DNA of 64,000 nucleotides from Paramacrobiotus metropolitanus (lineage: Eukaryota > Tardigrada > Eutardigrada > Parachela > Macrobiotidae): positions 34,847 to 98,846 of the forward strand of contig NW_026570465.1 of the NCBI RefSeq assembly GCF_019649055.1, read 5' to 3'. The translations under genes were made by a program, and so were the position numbers. Below the pieces are notes generated by a model. The model searched no databases. It was not told where the DNA came from and saw nothing but the letters and a program-made list of their open reading frames with translations. Each line of letters begins with the position of its first letter. Positions within the stretch are counted from its first letter, which is position 1. Below, one piece after another: positions 7,003-35,212 of this stretch.

Positions 7003-7345
7003 GTTAGTTTTGGCCCGCGCTCAAGCTCTGACTCTGACTCAGACTCTGACCGCTCAAACTCTGACTCTGACTGACCAAACTCTGACTCTGACTGAATAAC
7101 CAAAGAATAACTTAAAAAACCTAAGAAACCTAAGAAAACTAAGAAACCTAAGAAACCTAAGAAAACTAAGGAACCTAAGAAACCTAAGAAACCTAAGAAA
7201 CCTAAGAAACCTAAGAAGCCTATAAGAAACCTAAGAAATCGTCAGAGTCAGACTTTGAGCGGTCAGAGTCAGACTTTGAGTGGTCAGAGTCAGAGTTTGA
7301 GTGGTCAGAATCAGAGTCAGAGTTGGAGTCTAGGCCGTTAGTTTT
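7003..7345. mobile_element. Mutator-like non-autonomous inverted-repeat element with 9-bp target duplication
   Basis: The element spans 7012-7336. GTTAGTTTT occurs directly before it (7003-7011) and directly after it (7337-7345), a 9-bp target duplication. The left end starts GGCCCGCGCTCAAGCTCTGA and the right end, read inwards, starts GGCCTAGACTCCAACTCTGA. The arms are runs of the CTGACT/AGTCAG motif broken by CGCTCAAA-type spacers, in opposite orientation. The core, about 7108-7232, is a tandem CCTAAGAAA-type repeat. There is no coding capacity. A 9-bp duplication with long inverted arms is typical of Mutator-like elements. A related end lies at 63091-63137. Confidence 0.8.
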
Positions 7346-20085: not shown

Positions 20086-20431
20086 TCAAGTGTCACAAGG
20101 AATTGTTTCAGTAGAAGGCTGTGTTTCCGGTTGTAAAGGGGCAGAAGGGGTAGCCTGTGTTTCGGCTGCTGACACTTTGGATTTCCGTTTACTGCAGCAT
20201 TGGAAGAACGTTAAAATCGTCGATCTAAAGAACCAAGTGGCAAAGCCAAATGCAGCCACGACCAATAAAGTTGCACCAATATAAACGCCGTTTCGGAAAA
20301 GCCGAAAGCCGGCGAAAAAATCGGGCAGTTCAGGTATGCGTGTGGCGGCTTGTGCTAGCTGTCCAACACTGATTAGGCCGTGCTCTTCCATTGCGCTTCC
20401 GAGTTGCGCTAACAGGTTAAAGGTGTACGAG
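20086..20431 (-). pseudogene. Downstream part of an interrupted envelope-glycoprotein-like ORF
   Basis: This is the C-terminal part of a membrane protein whose upstream part lies at 29318-29850, beyond the transposon. Visible here are a short ectodomain stretch, one hydrophobic membrane segment (ATLLVVAAFGFATWFF), and a tail of about 40 residues rich in Ser, Pro, Gln and Thr, ending at a stop at 20086. Ectodomain, single membrane anchor and short tail is the layout of a viral or LTR-element Env protein. The transposon lies at the 6-bp duplication TACGAG, and the reading frame on the two sides is in register. The insertion therefore broke an otherwise open frame. Family assignment is tentative. 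Confidence 0.6.
20426..20431. repeat. Target site duplication, left copy (TACGAG)
   Basis: TACGAG directly precedes the transposon end TGTGACCGGC. The same six bases directly follow the other end at 29318-29323. Confidence 0.92.
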
Positions 20432-20664
20432 TGTGACCGGCAAAAATGTCCCCCCTGTCCCCCCGGACATTTTTGCCGTGTCCCCCCTGCCACCATCTCC
20501 AAAACGGTAACCCTTTGGTCAGAATGGTGACATGGGGGACCTACAACGGAAAGCTGTTTTTCAGGGCGATCGGTGACCTTTAAAAAACTGCCACCAGCGT
20601 TACCACAGCGTTACCAGTCCAAAACAGTTGAGGGACATCAGTCACCGAAGGGAAATTATTGCCG
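20432..20664. repeat. Left terminal inverted repeat of the transposon
   Basis: It mirrors 29085-29317 with only about four or five differences (one C more in a C-run and a few substitutions). The outermost 45 bases contain an internal palindrome: GGCAAAAATGTCC near the tip and GGACATTTTTGCC a little further in, separated by a C-run. These are plausible transposase binding sites. It leads into the 42-bp array. Confidence 0.93.
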
Positions 20665-21385
20665 GAACGAAACTACTAGTATCCGACATGGGGGACATTA
20701 TTGCCGGAACGAATTTAGTGGTGTCCGGCATGGGGGACATTATTGCCGGAACGAATTTAGTGGTGTCCGGCATGGGGGACATTATTGCCGGAACGAATTT
20801 AGTGGTGTCCGGCATGGGGGACATTATTGCCGGAACGAAATTACTAGTATCCGGCATAGGGGCATTATTGCCGGACCGAATTTAGTGGTGTCCGGCATGG
20901 GGACATTATTGCCGGAACGAATTTAGTGGTGTCCGCCATGGGGGACATATTGCCGAAACGAATTTAGTGGTGTCCGGCATGGGGGACATTATTGCCGAAA
21001 CGAATTTAGTGGTGTCCGGCATGGCGGACATTATTGCCGGAACGAATTTAGTGGTGTTCGGCATGGGTGACATTGCCGGACCGAATTTAGTGGTGTCCGG
21101 CATGGGGGACATTATTGCCGGAACGAATTTAGTGGTGTCCGGCATGGGGGACATTATTGCCGGAACGAATTTAGTGGTGTCCGGCATGGGGGACATTATT
21201 GCCGGAACGAATTTAGTGGTGTCCGGCATGGGGGACATTGTTGCAGGAAACAATTTAGTGGTGTTCGGCATGGGGGACATTAGTGCCGGAACGAATTTAG
21301 TGGTGTCCGGCATGGGGGACATTATTGCCGAACGAATTTAGTGGTGCCCGGCATGGGGGACATTATTGCTGGAAAGAATTGTAAG
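20650..21385. repeat. Left 42-bp minisatellite array (about 17 units)
   Basis: The unit contains GGGGGACATTATTGCCGGAA followed by CGAATTTAGTGGTGTCCGGC. Several units are shortened by one or two bases or vary at the CGAATTTAG part (for example ACAATTTAG). Because 42 bp is 14 codons, long repetitive reading frames arise in several frames on both strands; they are not genes. Confidence 0.95.
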
Positions 21386-21665
21386 GTACTAAGCAATGGG
21401 TGAACAACATTTCTCTAATCTTGTTCAGTTGCTCCCAGTCTTGGCGTGAGACCCTTCTGTGGTTCTCAAAACATATCTCTTCGCAGGTATTTTACATCTG
21501 TTCTGACAAGCCGGTGAGTTAACCGTCAAGTTCCGATTACGGTAAATGAAGCTGGTTTCGAAGTTTTGCATAATTGTCAGACTAATAAGTTTATGTTTTG
21601 AGATAACTGCTGGAAAACTTCCGCTTCAATCATTTGACCCAACATTTTGAAGTAGGCGATGTTAA
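21386..21665. other. 3' flank of the transposase gene inside the element
   Basis: This is unique sequence between the left array and the transposase stop codon (minus strand). It presumably holds the 3' untranslated region and polyadenylation signal. I did not identify a clear AATAAA at a convincing position. Confidence 0.5.
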
Positions 21666-24600
21666 TTATTCCATTTCGATAGGAGAAAGCTGTCGACGTC
21701 GCGTGGTGACCCTTTGTACTCTTGTCTGTTGACTGGGGGTTATGAAGTCCAGTAAATTTTCCGTTTCCGCATGACCTGATAATAAAATTTATTTGTTCGT
21801 CAACGAAGAAAAAATTAGTTAAAAACTTAGAAGTGTACCTTCGTTCGTGAGTGTCCGTTCTTTCTGCTTGCAGCCTGCGCATTTCCAGTTTGCCGGGCAA
21901 GTCATCGTGACTTCTGTCGCTTTTTTTGTTGTCATGCACAGTCGATGGTACCTCCCTTTGCACACTGAGCAGGTCCACATCAGGTTCCCGAAAAGATTGA
22001 CTGGCATTCGACAGATACAGTACAGGGGCACGATCCTGGATAACGATGCACCACCTGGCTTTACTGGCGAACTGGGAAAAGGGGTCAGGATTTGGTCTTT
22101 AAAACACTGCATCAAATGTCGGCGCATTTCCTAAAAGTTAGAGAAAACACTAGAAAAATACGAAACGAGAAAGAACACATCGCATCGAAATATTTATTTA
22201 TTGTACACAACTACCCAAACTTTCAAAGCACGGCTGCAGATGTGCACTTGGACGAATTTTTATGAACAGTTTCACTCATGATTGGTGACATTTACTACAG
22301 TAAATAGTTTCATCGGTGCCAGCACCCTGCCCGTTTGCTTAATAGAAATGTTACGTAGCCCATTAGTGTGGTGATTTAATATCGGCTTCGCGGCATCTAC
22401 AATGCCGCCTAACAAATAACGGGATCATTCATTACTTACGTTTTTATTATAACGCCTTTTTGCCGGATCGCCACCGTGGCATCTTTCGGTTAGGTAAGCA
22501 ACGGTATAGACTCCGCAGTCGCAACCGTTTTGTTGGTGTATCATAGGAGGAAAGCAGATCTGCATGGAATTGCAGAATTTAAACCGAAACACTGACGCTA
22601 TTTCCTGATCAAGGATATAATCCGGTTTCGCAGTTAAGCTGTCGTAAACAATGACTTCGTTTGCTGAACCATCGTGATGATTTGTCACAAATATCCAATG
22701 ATTTCCTTGCGTAAATAATATTTGCGACTTTCGAAAGTCGTTATCGCTACTCATTTCGTTCTTCTTCCTGAGGCCGGTTACAGTCTCCTGGAAAGCTGCT
22801 CCCTTATTCGCGCGCGGGATACAGTACTTGAGGGGGTCATCAAGCCCGTTCATGTGTGGAAACTGCTTTCTTAAAATTAATTCTGCGGCATAAATCACGA
22901 CCTCAGTAAGCCATCCGGTACAGTTGGAAATCGACAGCCAGTCTTCATATGTCACTGATAATTTAACTGGCTCAGTGATAACGAACCAAATGACTGCTCG
23001 ATCCATGTTCTTTTCTGCAAGAATGCAAAAGTATTCATTGTTAACGTACCGCGGTGATGTTATTTAAAACAGCTAGTAATGGTGCACTTCGCTTGTGAAC
23101 GTAATCGTGTTGATAATTGCGCGAGGTGCATTGAATGGTGCGTTAACAAGTTCTGCTTACGTCTTTAGACTCAATTAGCATTCTGTGTATGTGCCAAATT
23201 CAGTTATTTGCCCAAGATGGCCATCTAAAATAACTCTTTTGAGTTGGCCATTTTACGGAACAGATGTCTTGATATTTCCGTTACTGTTTGTAGTCTGTTG
23301 TTCGTCATGTACAGGTAAAGGTTTTAAGGATAGTCGAGGTGTAATAACGGAGTGTGCTAATGTACGTATTATGCCAGCTTACCGTCGTTTTCTTCCTCTT
23401 TGGTGAGATTTTCGGATATTTGAAGTGCTTCCTTAATGGCATGGCAAGCATCTGCGTGGATGCACTGCACCACCGCCAGTGGTATTGCTGCAAGTCCCTT
23501 GTAAAAGAGCTTCCTTTTTTCGCTTTCGTCCTTAGAACCAAAGTCCGGTGATACGTCAAACACCTTCAGTTCGCCGGCTAAGGACTTGAAATCTTTTCCT
23601 GCGGCATCCAGCACCATCAACTGACCCTCAAGAGCTTCAATGGCTAGGTGCGTAAAAAATGGTCGCAAAGCTTGCATGCCGTTAAACATGGACTGGTAGT
23701 CGGTTTCGTAAAGTTCGCCGTGCGCGAAATCACACGGAAGGTTTTGGTTTTCAACGTTGACAGCAAGCCCGTCATCTGAACTTCCCAAGGGATCGCAGGA
23801 TTCTCCGTTCGCACTAGCTATTGCAGTCAGCGACGCGTCAGAGGCAACCCTTGCTCCTGCAGTCATAAGAAATCCTTAGAAGCGACTTAATATGTAATTA
23901 ACGTGTATGAAGTATTGCTACCAGAAAGTGTTGGATAAATACATATCATGTGTAACCGTACATAACGTCAACTACATCCGGTAAAAGTGCGAGAAATTTC
24001 AAATGCAATAATTATTTTGAGCGCTAAGCATTAGACGTCTATATGCACACCTGTCGTCTTATCCGAATCAGTAAGCAGTGACTTCTTCCGTTTGTGCTGT
24101 TTCGATTTCACACCCTTCACGTCCTTAATATTAACCAGAAAAGTTGATTCTTCTGACCGGACTTTAAGCTCATGTCCTTTCCGTTGTATTGCAACAATCT
24201 CCAACGGGCCCGTATACTTCGCTTTGCCGAACTGTTTCGCTTTAAGGGAGCCCCTGGGCGCCACACTGGTGCGCACCCAAACTTCCATTCCGATTTTCAT
24301 TTCGCGTCCTTTCTTTGTTGCGTTCATGTATTTTCGTTGCTGTCGGGCTTGTCCGAGTCCGATATTCTCCGCAACTTTCGCAAACAAACTTTCTTCGTTA
24401 GTCTGGCGTGACTGGGCAAAGTTATCCCGCACGGCATCGGAAAACAGGCTTTCTTCGTCAACAGTGATTCGACATTCAATGTCTTGCTCAGAACTGCTGT
24501 CATTACCAGCATGACTTGTCGGTAGTTTGGGGTTGCGACCAAACATGATGCGAAACGGTGGGTACTTCGTTGTGCTTTGCACTGTCGCATTTGCAGCAAA

Positions 24601-26957
24601 TATCGCAGCATCCACCCACATGTCCCACTCACCGCCACGCTCCAAACAATACTGAGTTAAATCCCTGAAAACCACCGTGAAATATAACAACTGTTTAGCT
24701 CCGGATTGGTGTGTCCGACTCCGCACCAATCCGGAGCCGCACTTTGCTGCCTTCCGCAGCGATGCACGTGTCGTAGTTTGCGCCTCTTCCCAACGGGTTA
24801 TGCCGGCATTGGCTTCCTAGTTTATGCTGAATTGTACCGTTAAATCGAAACTGCCCACCAAAAGTGCGCGAATTTACACTACCGGCACGCATGCGCATAC
24901 AAAACTCGTCTGATGGGAATGAACAGGATTTTCTCATCGATGAAGGTCCGATTTCTAAAAACTGTCATCCCTACGACATGTGCAAGCTCGATTCGGCATT
25001 TCAGGCGGCGCACGCCACTCAGGCGATCAACTGCAGTCAGTAGTCACACACATTTCGGCATTTTATTGGTGCTGGTTATGGCGCCCAACAACCAAAAATT
25101 CTGCCACGTTTGGTATAATTACGGACAAACACAACCTAACGCTAGACCGGATGGTCAAAATCGTCGACAACACTTCCACTACGACCATTTCGCCAGAGCG
25201 AATTCGAAGCTGCCGCAGTACAAGATCGTAGCCGGATGGTTTGAAGATACCTTTACGGGTTGGACCGACAAAAATTTCAATCCGGAAAAATCGCCTATGA
25301 ATATCAGATTGCGTTGCGAGTTCGGTGGTTGTCGTTCGCAGTTAGGAGCTTCGGAATAAACTATTGGTAATTCTCAGTAACGTGATAAAAACACTTACGC
25401 TTTCAGTTGCTTATTGATTTGTTCCACCTGGCCGCACGTTCGAGGGTGCCGCGGTTTGGCATACCGATGGCGAATGCCAAGCGTCTTTTCCATATCATGG
25501 TTTTTATCGTTCTTAAATTCCAAACCTTTAAAGAATTTATTGTCAAATTGATTATAAATGAAAAAAATTTTCGTCTGTTTCGTACACATTCCGAATAAAG
25601 AATATACATTTACCGCTGCCTCTCGATGAGAGTGCACCACAAAATCTGATATACGAGTGTAACCGTCACATACGAGAATCGTGGCACACGGTACAGTGCG
25701 TTTTACCTAACGCGCGCAGTGCCCGGTAGCGAAAAGACAGCGACAAATCAAAATACGGTGCAAGCTCATGGAGCAGCTACTAACTAAATACAAACAAATT
25801 TGTAGGAAATTGCTGTCTGAAGAACACCGTCAAAAATCAAGCGTAAAGTTGAAAAAAATTTTGCTATCTAAATATATGCGCCGAATGCTATCTAAATATT
25901 TGGTAATTAGAAACTTCGTGAGCTTTCGGTAAACCGTCCAACGCGTACCGTTGTCGGAAATTAAGTTTTCTGGAATTCCGAATAAAGAATATACATGAAA
26001 AAGCTTTTCCACGATTGTTTCGGCTTTTTTGTTGTGGATTGGGAACGCCATTCTGAACTTGGTGAAGTAGTCTACGATGGTCAACACAAAAACATTCCCC
26101 TGTTTGGTTTCGGGTAGTTCGATCAGGTCGTAGCCGATAAGCGCCCAAGGTCGGCTGGGAATAGCTACGGACGATAAAGGCTCCTTCGCAGCATCTAGTC
26201 CCTTTCCTTGCTCGTGGCAAATCGTGCACCCATTAATCTAAAAATATTTATGTTTAAAATAAGGATCCTTCAAGCTAGTTAAACGTTTCCGAAGCGCTTA
26301 CCACTTCGTCAATAGTCTGCCTAATTCCATTCCAGTAATACATGCGATTAATGGACGCTTCCAGCGCATCCCGACGAGCGTGACCAAGAGTACTACAACG
26401 TACCACACTTGAAATGCTTTAAAACAACACATATCACGCAAATTGCAAGATAGCAATTTTGTTTAATTTTTCGGTTAGGCGATATTGACATGCTCTCCCG
26501 ACGAGCGCTTGTTAGCGCACTATCTTCAAAGAAGTCGCCAGCTAAATTAACTACGCGCCCTCGTCTATGAACAAGGAATTTGCTTTCCGATATCATTTTC
26601 ATTGTACAGTAAATCTCAGAACTTGTCTGATTCGCTGCTTTGTTTCTCGATGAAAATCGCAGCTACTGCTTAGTTCTACCGCTTAGCACCACCGCTACAT
26701 TACCTATGCAGCTCAGTAACTAGCTTCTGGGCTTCCTCAGCACTCAGAATCACAACAAGGTCTTCCGCACTCTCCGTAGTGTCAGATGCCTTTCCGCGCG
26801 AAATCTTCCGAAATAACTTTCCGTCACGAATAAAAAAGGCTCCAGAACGTCGCCGAAAAACTCGCTTCTGATCCTTTGTCGTTACGTCAGCTGGATATTT
26901 TTTAGTCTCCAAATAGGCTTTGATAGCAAGTAAATCGACGTGCTGTTTCGAACCCAT
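21666..26957 (-). CDS. Transposase: integrase - Ulp1 protease - PHD finger, nine exons
   Basis: Proposed exons are 26957-26704, 26392-26302, 26237-25949, 25525-25399, 24664-24051, 23856-23393 minus ten bases (ending 23383), 23014-22440, 22130-21839 and 21775-21666. All introns are GT-AG, all phases match, and the frame is open from ATG to TAA (941 aa). Visible in the spliced protein are an HHCC finger (H84, H89, C119, C122) and an integrase core with D152, D210 and E246 (exactly 35 residues between the last two). These are followed by a GPY/F-like stretch (KYTGPLEIV, near 405), an unrecognised acidic middle (about 458-616), a Ulp1/SENP-type protease (H722, D741, Q778, C783) and a PHD finger (C846, C848, C862, C865, H870, C873, C892, C895). 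A short basic tail ends the protein. The integrase should cut and insert the element via the terminal repeats. The protease suggests SUMO processing and the PHD finger chromatin targeting; both are inferences. The start ATG at 26957 is preferred over an upstream in-frame TTG. Confidence 0.88.
24698..24737. repeat. Perfect 14-bp hairpin in transposase intron 4
   Basis: GCTCCGGATTGGTG is repeated as an exact inverted copy after a 12-nt loop. It lies 32-71 bases upstream of the acceptor of exon 5 on the transcribed strand, a position where structure could affect splicing. That role is a guess. Confidence 0.85.
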
Positions 26958-27835
26958 CGCGACAGCAAACGAACTCAAAACGGAACAAAATAACTGCTTT
27001 ATCTATATATTCATGAGTTGATAAACGTTTTAAGTTCAAAACGATACAAAACGGAAATTACGAAGCACAACATGATGATGTCAACATCTGATTAATGTTT
27101 TCAAGAAATCACGAGCAAGCATCGAAGAAAAGCCTACTGCCAGAGCGTTCGGCTCTGAGCTCACGTCGGTCTCGGATTGGACCGCCGGATCGGAGCTGCC
27201 GAGCCGCTCTTGTGCAGCGATGTCCATTCATCGGATTCCACGGATTCATTACGATGTTTTTGGCCTCAGTGAAAGATCTCTAGATTTTCACTTCGGTGTT
27301 TTTCTGTTTGTCTTTTCGCTGATGATTTGTGTTTTGGTTTACGATCTAATAAAATACGATTTTATTTGATCTCGTTTGGTTGCATTTCCGATCCCGATTC
27401 TCGCTCACGTACAAACGTATCGCTCAAATCAGCCATCCTTTCACTACCATAGTGCATTGGCAACTACATGGATAACTGGATGGAAAGAAAACCGTCCATC
27501 ATTCAGCTAACAAACATTGTATTCAAACTTGATCGATCAACACATACAAAACTTTTTGAATATGTCTTCAAGCAGTTTGATGAGAGGCACATCTGCATTG
27601 GGGCAATTTTTAAAAAAGCCAGAAAAAACCGAATTTTTTTGAAAAATAGCTCAAAATCATCTTCCGCCTTTTCAGCAAAAGAGCCGAATTGACCTTTCGA
27701 CACTCCAATATTCCGAAGTTTCACACAACCCTTAGAAAAGCCCACTCGGGAACACCTAGTGAATCACTCCTTTGCTGTACTGTGCACATAATAATGCCCT
27801 TGCAGACAGACACCTAGTAATTCACAACCGGCAAT
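26958..27835. other. 5' flank of the transposase gene inside the element
   Basis: This is unique sequence between the transposase start (minus strand) and the right array, presumably promoter and 5' untranslated region. I see no convincing TATA box. Short frames on both strands have no recognisable domain. Confidence 0.5.
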
Positions 27836-29098
27836 ATCATCCACCCTGCCGAACACCACTAAATACGTTCAGGCAATAATGTCCCCCATGCCGAACACCA
27901 CTAAATTGTTTCCTGCAACAATGTCCCCCATGCCGGATACTAGTAATTTCGTTCCGGCAATAATGTCCCCCATGCCGGACACCACTAAATTCAGTCCGGC
28001 AATAATGTCCCCCATGCCGGACACCACTAAATTCGGTCCGGCAATAATGTCCCCCATGCCGAACACCACTAAATTCGTTCAGGCAATAATGTCCCCCATG
28101 CCGAACACCACTAAATTGTTTCCTGCAACAATGTCCCCCATGCCGGATACTAGTAATTTCGTTCCGGCAATAATGTCCCCCATGCCGGACACCACTAAAT
28201 TCGGTCCGGCAATAATGTCCCCCATGCCGGACACCACTAAATTCGGTCCGGCAATAATGTCCCCCATGCCGAACACCACTAAATTGTTTCCTGCAACAAT
28301 GTCCCCATGCCGGATACTAGTAATTTCGTTCCGGCAATAATGTCCCCCATGCCGGACACCACTAAATTCAGTCCGGCAATAATGTCCCCCATGCCGGACA
28401 CCACTAAATTCGGTCCGGCAATAATGTCCCCCATGCCGAACACCACTAAATTCGTTCAGGCAATAATGTCCCCCATGCCGAACACCACTAAATTGTTTCC
28501 TGCAACAATGTCCCCCATGCCGGATACTAGTAATTTCGTTCCGGCAATAATGTCCCCCATGCCGGACACCACTAAATTCGGTCCGGCAATAATGTCCCCA
28601 TGCCGGACACCACTAAATTCGTTCCGGCAATAATGTCCCCCATGCCGGACACCACTAATTTCGTTCCGGCAATAATGTCCCCATGCCGGACACCACTAAA
28701 TTCGGTCCGGCAATAATGTCCCCCATGCCGGACACCACTAAATTCGGTCCGGCAATAATGTCCCCCATGCCGGACACCACTAATTTCGTTCTTGCAATAA
28801 TGTCCCCCATGCCGGACACCACTAAATTCGTTCCGGCAATAATGTCCCCCATGCCGGACACCACTAAATTCGGTCCGGCAATAATGCCCCCTATGCCGGA
28901 TACTAGTAATTTCGTTCCGGCAATAATGTCCCCCATGCCGGACACCACTAAATTCGTTCCGGCAATAATGTCCCCCATGCCGGACACCACTGAATTCGTT
29001 CCGGCAATAATGTCCCCCATGCCGGACACCACTAAATTCGTTCCGGCAATAATGTCCCCCATGTCGGATACTAGTAGTTTCGTTCCGGCAATAATTTC
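27836..29098. repeat. Right 42-bp minisatellite array (about 30 units) with higher-order structure
   Basis: This is the same 42-bp unit as the left array in opposite orientation (CCGGCAATAATGTCCCCCAT, then GCCGGACACCACTAAATTCG). Variant units (TTGTTTCCTGCAACAATG type; ACTAGTAATTTCG type) recur in the same order with spacing of five and four units between about 27878 and 28560. Blocks of several units have therefore been duplicated together. Repetitive frames through it (14-residue periods) are artefacts of the period. Confidence 0.95.
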
Positions 29099-29317
29099 CC
29101 TTCGGTGACTGATGTCCCTCAACTGTTTTGGACTGGTAACGCTGTGGTAACGCTGGTGGCAGTTTTTCAAAGGTCACCGATCGCCCTGAAAAACAGCTTA
29201 CCGTTGTAGGTCCCCCATGTCACCATTCTGACCAAAGGGTTACCGTTTTGGAGATGGTGGCACGGGGGACACGGCAAAAATGTCCGGGGGGACAGGGGGA
29301 CATTTTTGCCGGTCACA
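29085..29317. repeat. Right terminal inverted repeat of the transposon
   Basis: It is the reverse complement of 20432-20664 with very few differences. It ends GCCGGTCACA at 29317, directly followed by the duplication TACGAG. Confidence 0.93.
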
Positions 29318-29323
29318 TACGAG
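29318..29323. repeat. Target site duplication, right copy (TACGAG)
   Basis: These six bases equal those at 20426-20431 and directly abut the right transposon end. Confidence 0.92.
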
Positions 29324-29850
29324 TGTTCTTTTTCCAATGCTGAGGAAAGGTATTGCGCTGAGTTATCGATGTGACTGTCAAAGTGTATATTAATCCACTT
29401 GTGTTCCGCATGTATTGTCGACTCCAGCTTGATCCATTCATTGTCACGGGCGGTGTACGGTTGGCCCATCAAGTTGATTATCCTGTACCGCCATAAACAC
29501 GGTGCGTACGGCAATAACAGGTAGCCGTCTTGTCCGATTCCATACTTTCCGCTACGTGGTGGCGGTCCACATGGCAAGTCGTTATCTACGGTGATGTCGA
29601 CGTTCACTGTGCGGCATTTACGTAACACAGCCATTTCGTGGAACGACTCTAAGCTGTGACAGTCGTTGCAATGAGCCGCTCTCGCTGCGAGTATCCCGGA
29701 AGTGCGGGAAAGGGCATACATAGACTGTACATGGATTTTTGAGAACTTGCAAGCTAAAGAGTTAAGCGCGTCCGCTGCGGCATTTTCTTGTGTTTCGAAC
29801 GTATCCATGATCCATTGAAGATGATGAGGTAGGAACTGCTCCTCTGTCAT
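29318..29850 (-). pseudogene. Upstream part of an interrupted envelope-glycoprotein-like ORF
   Basis: The frame from the ATG at 29850 runs unbroken to the transposon boundary (about 177 codons). It has an N-terminal part with helical heptad-like character, several cysteines (CNDCHS, then CRTVNVDI, then CGPPPR, then CLW) and a DGYLLLPYAPC stretch. The in-frame bases just upstream encode KSRNKRLRVGSR, which includes an RNKR dibasic site like those cut by furin in Env precursors; a stop lies further up. Together with the membrane segment at 20086-20431 this suggests a class of viral Env glycoprotein. The Cys/DGY pattern reminds me of chuvirus-like or LTR-element glycoproteins, but I cannot confirm it without a search. 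A host glycoprotein is the alternative. Confidence 0.55.
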
Positions 29851-29937
29851 TATTTCCGTTTCCTGTGATCGAGATCCAACTCGTAGCCTTTTGTTGCGAC
29901 TTTTGGGCTCGTTCTTTTGTAAACTGAGCTATGATGG

Positions 29938-33064: not shown

Positions 33065-33986
33065 CTATGGCCGAAAATGAAGTTTAACTAAGGATTTGCC
33101 GGTTTCGAACTTGGCGTTCTCACCACTATCGTTAGCAATTGTTAAATTAATAGTCTCAAAGTAGGAAGGTAAAACTGGAACATATTGGGGACTATCGAAC
33201 ACATTATCTACCATCTTATTCACTTGCCATTTAATAGGCACGACACGCAAAATCTGCGCAGAAGTGTCTCCAAGGTAGCTGAAATCAACAATGGCGCAGT
33301 ACAGGAACAGGCCTTCTGCAGCAGAGTATTCACCGTCTTGTTGCCAAATACTCATCCCTTGTTTTTTTTATTTTCTTTTCGCGCTGCCAGGAAGCGCTTG
33401 ATACGAATTTCTTTCGATGCGTTAGATAGGACAGACTCGTTAAACACAAGAATACTCCAGCGGCTGGAGTAAGGCTGATTCTTTAGGAAATGGAACAAAA
33501 AATTCGCGGACTGTACACTTAGACGACTACGCGATGGTTTGCTGGTGCCAGAAAGTGAAAGTTCACTGCTCGCGCATCAGGACGGCCGCCGTTGGCATCC
33601 TCTATGGGCTCTCCAGGGTGTTGCGTGAACCCTTTTATTTTTGGAGCTTGCTTGTTGATTACGTCGAGCAATAACTCGTCCCTCTTGTAGTTTCGAGGTG
33701 GCACCGCAATCTGCTCTGTAAACTCTTCTAGAGGGTACAGAGTAGTGCCATCATCTTTGGGAACAATAGCAATATCATCAATACTAGTAATTTTGATAGT
33801 CTGAGGATACTGTATGGTAAAGAGAGAACTTAAAAACTGCAACTCGACCAGTGTCACTTCCCAAGCTCCTTTCAACTGAATCGCCTGTTTCAGCCTGGTC
33901 TGCCAGTCGGAAACGCTGTTATCAGGGTAATCAGACATACTGGCGTCGCTGGGCAAGGTCATATAGAACGCTCGATTTTCATGCAT
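33065..33986 (-). pseudogene. Polinton/Maverick minor capsid (penton-like) gene, frameshifted
   Basis: The N-terminal part (33986-33519) starts with ATG and contains FYMTLPSDASMSDYPDNSVS, then WEVTLVELQFLS, the conserved opening of the Polinton minor-capsid (penton, jelly-roll) protein family. The C-terminal part (33355-33065) contains GLFLYCAIVDFSYLGDTSAQ, PQYVPVLPSYFETI and a final VKLHFRP, the conserved ending of that family. Between them the minus strand has stops and only about 160 bases, so part of the middle is lost or shifted. Polintons are virus-like DNA transposons whose capsid genes descend from double-stranded DNA viruses. No other Polinton gene (PolB, integrase, ATPase, protease, major capsid) was seen nearby, so this is an isolated dead fragment. 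Confidence 0.85.
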
Positions 33987-35212
33987 TTTTGTGAAGACTC
34001 GGCAACCCCGTGGAGAGGGGGAGTGTTTGTAGCAGCGAATTAGACGACGTCTCTTAAATCAATTTGAACACGAACATTGAGCGTGATTTCTAATGTCTTG
34101 AGCATTGCGCGGTTAGAATTGTTCGTTTGTAGAGCATTTAACTTAGGATACAAAAAAATTATCAGTCGGACTACCTACATTTCAGTAAGTTAATCTTAAG
34201 ACTGTGTTGCGTAGAAATTTAGGTAAAAGGATGACATCAACAAAAAAAACTTTTCAAAAGTTTGGAAAAATTACTTTTTTAGGTAGCTAAGATGAGCTTT
34301 TGTTTTAAAGAAATGGATGGATAATAAATCTGTACTTCCGAAATGCCATCAAAAGTACAAAATAGAGGTTGGTTTGGTGGCTTTGGTCGGGGAACGTCCA
34401 CGGGAAGCTACACCAGCTGTTTAGCTGGTCTACGTCGTAGACCGTAGTTGCATTTCCGTGGAGCACAGCGACCTATCACGGCGCAAGGCGGGACCAGCGA
34501 GCTCCACGGAGTTGCAAACCTGTGTAGGGAGTTGAAGTTTGATTGAGACTAATATCAAGCACACAAGCGACAACAAGATGATCGTATCAGACACCAGAAA
34601 AATGCAAACACGAATCATCCAGCTCAAATTATTCCTACCACCACGAGAAAACCGTCACGTCGACCACTACAAATGAAGTGAGCGCCAATTACACCTTCCA
34701 AGTATCTAAAACCTACTACAGACTGGGCAACCAGGCGACCATAACTAGCGCAAAAAGCTCACCTACTTTACTTTTCAGTCGACGACCTAGACTCCTACCA
34801 GACTTTGCCAGTTTCTTTAAATCGTAGTACAAGAATGAAAAAATCCTTAAACGAGCCACATACTGTAGATGTTTTCAAATATATGTATGCCCACCTGCAG
34901 TATTTAATACAACATCAAACAGCAATATCAAATATTTTAGCTCAGTACGTACATCTAACTGACTGCAAACAAAAATAGTTGTCCAATTTGAGTTCCTGTT
35001 TCTGCAATCTGCGAGACCACACTGAATGGGGAGTATAGACAAAGGCTATCAGGTCTGGCCATCAATCCTCTTCGGTCTGCATGCAATCTCACTCCCCATC
35101 TGTTATGTTTTATACCACCGCGGCTACCAACAGATAATACGGCCTCTATGGCACAAACGCCATAGGGCACAACACGAGCGGTTGGTGAGTGCCAACTTGC
35201 ATATGAGGTAAT
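33987..35212. other. No gene recognised; small hairpins
   Basis: No domain is visible. Around 34405-34445 short stems occur (CCAGCTGTTTAGCTGG; GGTCTACGTCGTAGACC). Confidence 0.5.

Follow-up and report, generated by a model that had tools for sequence, protein, structure and literature searches.

A Ginger1-like DNA transposon with Foldback-type arms and a CG-centred 6-bp target duplication in a tardigrade genome

A 64,000-nt stretch of the genome of the tardigrade Paramacrobiotus metropolitanus (contig NW_026570465.1, positions 34,847 to 98,846 of the forward strand; ‘the window’, whose numbering is used wherever no other contig is named) carries at 20432-29317 a complete DNA transposon of 8.9 kb. 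Its parts are a terminal inverted repeat (TIR), a tandem array of 42-bp units, a gene, a second 42-bp array in inverted orientation and the opposite TIR (Table 1). Other copies are named by their contig in the genome (G000: 169.8 Mb, 533 contigs). A search of the assembly for the COX1 family gave no match, nor did a search for SL1 RNA, which had no positive control. A preliminary description made from the window sequence had proposed a complete, apparently young Ginger1-like transposon with near-identical terminal repeats of 230 bp, large inverted 42-bp arms, a target duplication and one unbroken nine-exon gene. The borders, the open gene, the two oppositely oriented arrays and the 6-bp target site duplication (TSD), TACGAG, all hold; the terminal repeats are indeed 98% identical, left versus right, and their length is corrected here to 217-218 bp, with an inverted match that extends past them into the arrays (412 nt at 99%). 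The element has TGT..ACA ends, starting with TGTGA, which fits the pattern TGTNR. The outermost bases of the TIR, about 50 in number, form a palindrome (z-score -8.0), and TIR columns 1 to about 54 are nearly without variation across 26 ends.

This element is one of a multi-copy family, as emerged from the genome search with the terminal repeat that the preliminary description had called for. That search gave 40 scored matches among 101 candidates, and a 24-base end pattern found 91 matches at up to three mismatches (53 exact), against none for the reversed pattern used as a control; under a simple neighbour rule these matches form 24 facing pairs less than 16 kb apart. The copies examined here are 13 two-ended ones, namely the window copy and 12 others that were fetched because both of their ends were scored in the terminal-repeat search; five one-ended copies were fetched as well, and pairs known only from the end-pattern search are not among the 13. 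In 12 of the 13 copies each end is followed inward by an array, the inverted order being the same throughout, while C381 has one array only, and the structural hallmark of Foldback elements, long inverted tandem-repeat arms around a unique middle, is likewise present in 12 of 13. Among the matches listed, and as compared by eye, the places with arrays lie on contigs that also have end motifs, which speaks against a free satellite. On C95, around 20578, a copy is inserted into 42-bp units, apparently those of another copy of the same family, and C135:1-5404 holds the first part of the transposase gene followed by arrays and a terminal repeat, its other end lying beyond the contig start. More distant transposase relatives are found on C252, C58 (166-173 kb), C84, C284 and C1 (3584554), with no end-motif match nearby at up to three mismatches.

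Members of the family insert at a 6-bp staggered cut that has CG at its centre. Eight of the 13 copies have an exact 6-bp TSD, three match at five of the six bases and two (C113 and C58a) have none; no copy has an exact duplication at lengths of 2-5 or 7-10 bp, and mismatched pairs of flanks, taken as a control, reach five of six in 2 of 156 cases. Of the 11 copies that have a TSD, 7 show a centred CG in the left flank and 8 in the right, other offsets giving 0-2. Ten further ends with flanks at hand, the degenerate C31 among them, divide into seven with CG and three with TG or CA, and the latter could reflect deamination of CG. All 13 copies share their first bases, and 12 share their last; in the exception, C1a, the right end is displaced inward by 14 bp, to another TGT, and the 6-bp TSD is perfect.

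The target site of the window copy is itself repeated, the right flank matching four other places in the genome and the left flank two. At C90 both flanks match (98% and 97%), overlap by exactly 6 bases and share one TACGAG, while C97 and C3 continue over the insertion point without the element, reading TAGGAG and TAGAAG. The preliminary description had staked its ends on shared borders among copies and on an empty site with a single TACGAG, and both were found. As C90 lacks the element, the insertion is younger than the split between target copies that are 97-98% alike, unless C90 represents a precise excision. The proposed youth of the element is thus retained as an upper bound only, from an empty paralogue 97-98% identical to the flanks and from a gene that is open, unlike its broken counterparts in C419 and C35.

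The gene lies on the minus strand and splices, through eight GT-AG introns, to an open frame of 946 aa with no stop. Open frames of at least 80 aa in the element were listed, and seven exon frames together with the spliced protein were scanned with Pfam. In the 946-aa protein Integrase_H2C2 (PF17921, 32.3 bits) and rve (PF00665, 41.8 bits) both exceed their Pfam cut-offs; the catalytic spacing, read off the sequence, is D35E, and the integrase part matches 16 sequences of solved structures, including retroviral and Ty3 integrases. By eye, an N-terminal KYP...FF...LF resembles the YPYY motif, and the position of the GPY/F motif reads GPL in the window, GPF in C419 and GPS in C35. The Ulp1-like H, D, Q and C motifs are retained in C419 and C35. 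No THAP domain was found in the spliced protein (Pfam, E up to 0.1), and the capsid family PF16903 gave a weak, sub-threshold match in the exon frames (14.8 versus 24 bits), no search having been aimed at the DNA polymerase B and capsid genes that characterise Polinton/Maverick elements. Among proteins, the whole sequence has at least 17 relatives (best 8000 candidates scored) and its first 464 residues have 11, many relatives carrying reverse-transcriptase or RNase H domains; the Ulp1-PHD part has none at E 0.001 among 289 candidates. One sponge protein, P0002 of Ephydatia muelleri, has an integrase followed by Ulp1-like and PHD-like motifs as judged by eye.

Table 1. Positions of the element's features in the window.
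Feature	Position	Strand	Basis
TSD, left copy (TACGAG)	20426..20431		sequence; empty site at C90 with one copy
Left TIR, TGTGACCGG...	20432..20649	+	sequence comparison
Left array, 17.6 units of 42 bp	20650..21380	+	tandem-repeat period 42
Exon 9: C-terminus	21666..21775	-	gene model
Exon 8: PHD-like finger	21839..22130	-	below Pfam cut-off
Exon 7: Ulp1-like protease; H, D, Q, C motifs by eye	22440..23014	-	Pfam C48 slightly under cut-off
Exon 6: linker, no assigned role	23383..23856	-	gene model
Exon 5: after catalytic core; GPY/F-like motif (GPL; GPF in C419)	24051..24664	-	gene model
Exon 4: catalytic E	25399..25525	-	gene model; D35E spacing from sequence
Exon 3: zinc finger C..C, catalytic D and D	25949..26237	-	gene model, Pfam
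Exon 2: H2C2 zinc finger	26302..26407	-	gene model, Pfam
Exon 1: start codon; YPYY-like motif by eye	26704..26957	-	spliced gene model
Right array, 30.4 units of 42 bp, inverted relative to left array	27828..29100	-	tandem-repeat period 42
Right TIR, ...CCGGTCACA	29101..29317	-	sequence comparison
TSD, right copy (TACGAG)	29318..29323		sequence; empty site at C90

We read the element as an autonomous cut-and-paste transposon with a Ginger1-like, integrase-type transposase, which differs from described Ginger1 elements by its CG-centred 6-bp stagger and its Foldback-type arms, and we put the probability of this reading at roughly 0.72.

Within the family, arms and cores appear to have had partly separate histories. 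Two of the other two-ended copies, C419 and C35, carry related transposase genes, broken by a stop or by frame breaks, whose synonymous sites are near saturation relative to the window gene (pS 0.74 and 0.75; dN 0.22 and 0.27), giving a dN/dS of about 0.07 in a comparison that kept low-identity alignments and dropped stops. The terminal repeats of the window copy and C419 differ at 11 of about 190 positions, none of them before alignment column 95. The remaining 10 two-ended copies gave no match to the transposase gene at the thresholds used, and their interiors fall into several groups. Ends from one copy tend to resemble each other: the end-to-end distance is 0.033 within copies versus 0.076 between them (0 of 20,000 permutations as low; p 5e-5), and a copy's own two ends are mutually nearest in 7 of 13. 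One pair of interiors looks like it includes a captured fragment of a host gene, to go by sequence similarity. In C58a (C58:102810-103133) and C46 (87312-87635) a frame between the arrays, 99% alike in the two, has 87% protein identity to one of seven matches clustered on C27, and about 500 bp of this interior match C27:1139895-1140395 at 85%. C27 is without the end motif (24-base pattern, up to three mismatches), and its cluster is probably an ordinary host gene; C44, a related copy, matches other parts of the C58a/C46 interior but not the C27-like piece.

It is tempting to suppose that the arms, and not the gene, are the lasting unit of the family, kept alike by conversion, passed among diverged transposases and placed around unrelated fillers and a captured gene fragment, and we offer this tentatively. 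It is equally conceivable, if doubtful, that selection on the ends alone has kept the arms of diverged transposases similar with no exchange between lineages, and the identity of the window and C419 repeats in their outer columns is what such selection would leave; 11 differences over the whole repeat alongside saturated synonymous sites, and the likeness of the two ends of a copy, fit it poorly.

The arms themselves echo the ends. An 18-base terminal core has 45 sites in the element at up to three mismatches, two of which are the termini, versus none in the rest of the window (two at four mismatches), and 50 single-base shuffles of the arms contain on average 0.04 sites at up to four mismatches. 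The other 43 sites are array-oriented, for about 48 units: 14 lie in the left arm, as the reverse complement of the terminal core, and 29 in the right arm in array orientation. Since most units repeat the terminal core in this way, the likeliest function of the arms is as arrays of binding sites for the transposase, a role we assign from their sequence, and the 42-bp period, at four turns of B-DNA, would place these sites on one face of the helix. Units cut from 16 elements number 813, and in the 587 of exactly 42 bp that were compared, the commonest base is found in 0.84-0.99 of units at positions 1-18 and 30-42; the three least conserved positions (0.40-0.62) fall within 19-29.

Alternatively, the arrays might be passengers with no role in transposition: a chance duplication near the ends would have expanded by replication slippage into passive minisatellites. 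We consider this unlikely, though the number of units per arm ranges widely between copies and arms (from about 10 to 92) and C381 has a five-of-six TSD with its single array. Passive growth sits badly with arrays at both ends of nearly all copies in the same inverted order, with a core site in most units, with a dominant array period of 41-42, and with the conservation of positions 13-18 and 30-42, which lie outside the anchor used to pick units, next to variable positions confined to the middle of the unit.

Under the Ginger1-like reading, the transposase would bind the terminal palindrome and the many core copies in the arrays, and the arms may thereby mark the true ends and assist their pairing, raising its specificity or stability. 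Cleavage would occur at TGT..ACA, and the 3′ ends would attack the two strands of the target at points 6 bp apart, at CG. The arms would behave as a module, in that the two ends of a copy tend to stay alike and the same arms enclose different cores, and copies without the gene were presumably moved in trans. There is a precedent in Galileo, in which a THAP domain binds sites in tandem-repeat arms and for which many sites have been suggested to give specificity (PMC3688188).

A further possibility is that the integrase came from a Gypsy-type retroelement and was captured between the arms of an unrelated transposon, whose real transposase is another gene. The 10 two-ended copies without a match to the gene would suit such a capture, as would arms common to transposase lineages with saturated synonymous sites and an integrase tree in which, C419 and C35 aside, the nearest rows by path are long-branched proteins bearing a reverse transcriptase. 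We nonetheless regard it as improbable, for three separate two-ended copies (window, C419 and C35) have such a gene between the arms, C135 has the part for about the first 259 residues beside an arm, and the dN/dS of 0.07 indicates constraint; moreover, the C-terminal order of the Ulp1-like and PHD-like parts is that of Ginger1, and TGT..ACA ends are typical of integrase-type transposons.

Several observations weigh against our preferred reading, or against parts of it. In the full protein the Ulp1 and PHD assignments fall below their Pfam cut-offs (C48, 17.5 versus 20.7 bits; PHD_4, 17.1 versus 30.6 bits), the AlphaFold model of the Ulp1 exon is unusable (mean pLDDT 35.6), and a profile search of that exon against solved structures gave a single, unrelated match (E 0.65). 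The integrase tree has weak forks and contains no certified Ginger1 references. C113 and C58a lack a TSD; their two ends, like those of C44 and C69, differ by 7-10%, and diverged ends together with a missing TSD are what recombination between copies would give. C381 has its near-perfect TSD despite a missing array. The array cores share the orientation of the palindrome's inner half, the reverse of that of the outermost terminal copy, and conservation at unit positions 1-12 is partly a product of selection, because the anchor for picking units covered them. In 5 of 13 copies the partner end is farther off than some end of another copy, and C419 is a tie. Finally, dN/dS is 0.32 between C419 and C35 and 0.59 between the window and C135 (258 codons); constraint on the gene is long-term, and these two values do not extend it to recent times.

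Comparison with described elements places the transposon near Ginger1, at a distance. Bao, Kapitonov and Jurka (2010, PMC2836005) describe Ginger1 elements with 4-bp CCGG/CCGT duplications, TGTNR ends, terminal repeats some 40-270 bp long and a C-terminal Ulp1 or OTU protease, in some cases with PHD; the 4-bp TSD is given also in PMC10045372. The window element shares with them, as far as these sources describe them, the H2C2 and DDE integrase core, the TGTNR ends, a repeat length within the 40-270 bp range and CG in the target; stretches that recall the YPYY and GPY/F motifs of Ginger1 can be made out by eye; in Ginger1-9_HM, too, the integrase core is followed by Ulp1 and PHD (PMC2836005), for which the window matches are under cut-off. 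It differs in its 6-bp TSD, in its 42-bp array arms, in its length (8.9 kb versus about 2.6-7 kb) and in its eight introns (versus 0-4; PMC2836005, Table 1). That it is nonetheless a plain Ginger1 with misplaced borders and a true duplication of 4 bp is very improbable indeed, alike though ends, repeat length, domain order and CG-centred target are, since none of the 13 copies has a 4-bp duplication whereas eight have an exact 6-bp one, and the empty site at C90 fits 6 bp. Strict membership of Ginger1 fails for want of the 4-bp CCGG/CCGT duplication, and ‘Ginger1-like’, the term of the preliminary description, is for now the right one, given the agreement in ends, terminal-repeat length and the order of the domains; that description had not noted that a 6-bp duplication sets the element apart from Ginger1.

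Duplications of 6 bp and an integrase-type enzyme are shared with Polinton/Maverick and IS3EU/GingerRoot elements, which are described as being without the HHCC motif (PMC10045372), whereas the window protein has H2C2. IS3EU elements have TA..TA ends and GingerRoot mostly so, occasionally TG..CA (PMC10045372); the window element has TG..CA.

Structurally the element is a Foldback, an architecture already known in the P and Mutator superfamilies. Galileo and Tetris of Drosophila have long inverted repeats that hold tandem repeats around a middle (PMC3688188, PMC4079207), but Galileo encodes a P-superfamily transposase with THAP (PMC3688188), where the window protein carries integrase domains without THAP, and Tetris seems to be nonautonomous; no integrase-type enzyme is mentioned for either in the available portions of these papers (PMC4079207, PMC3688188). 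Tm1, a Mutator/Foldback element of root-knot nematodes, resembles the present family in its composite Foldback-like TIRs and in having copies with and without transposase, and differs in a transposase akin to the Phantom subclass of Mutator and in 9-bp duplications (PMC3169594). The preliminary description knew of no Ginger element with such large inverted arms; we likewise found none with Foldback arms, nor one with 6-bp duplications, in the available parts of the open-licence literature searched, subscription journals and Repbase reports lying largely outside it, and Foldback arms are known from elsewhere.

The insertion interrupts one open frame on the minus strand (29318-29928 joined to 20089-20431), whose C-terminal part, judged by eye, has a stretch that spans the membrane; neither half, scanned on its own, matches a Pfam family. 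This target sequence, being repeated in the genome, may belong to another mobile or viral element. A frame at 33522-34058, also on the minus strand and without a Pfam match, resembles by eye what we take to be proteins of Polinton-like elements, and short tandem repeats with periods of 6, 9, 21 and 27 cluster at 7022-7315.

TSD length serves as an indicator of integrase-type superfamilies (PMC10045372), and the clean 6-bp stagger seen here with a Ginger1-like enzyme suggests that it can change without loss of the CG-centred target. Foldback arms were already described around P and Mutator enzymes; with an integrase-type enzyme added, they look like a solution that has recurred and no quirk of a single superfamily. 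Because the 42-bp unit visibly echoes the end, the function of such arms can be tested directly in this family. The integrase and protease of Polintons may have come from Ginger-like elements, according to PMC6431247, and a relative with a 6-bp duplication and an Ulp1-like part is therefore worth placing on the tree of Polinton origins. If the arms are indeed the lasting unit, a modular element with a Polinton-like 6-bp stagger would stand naturally midway between simple integrase transposons and the large ones that carry cargo.

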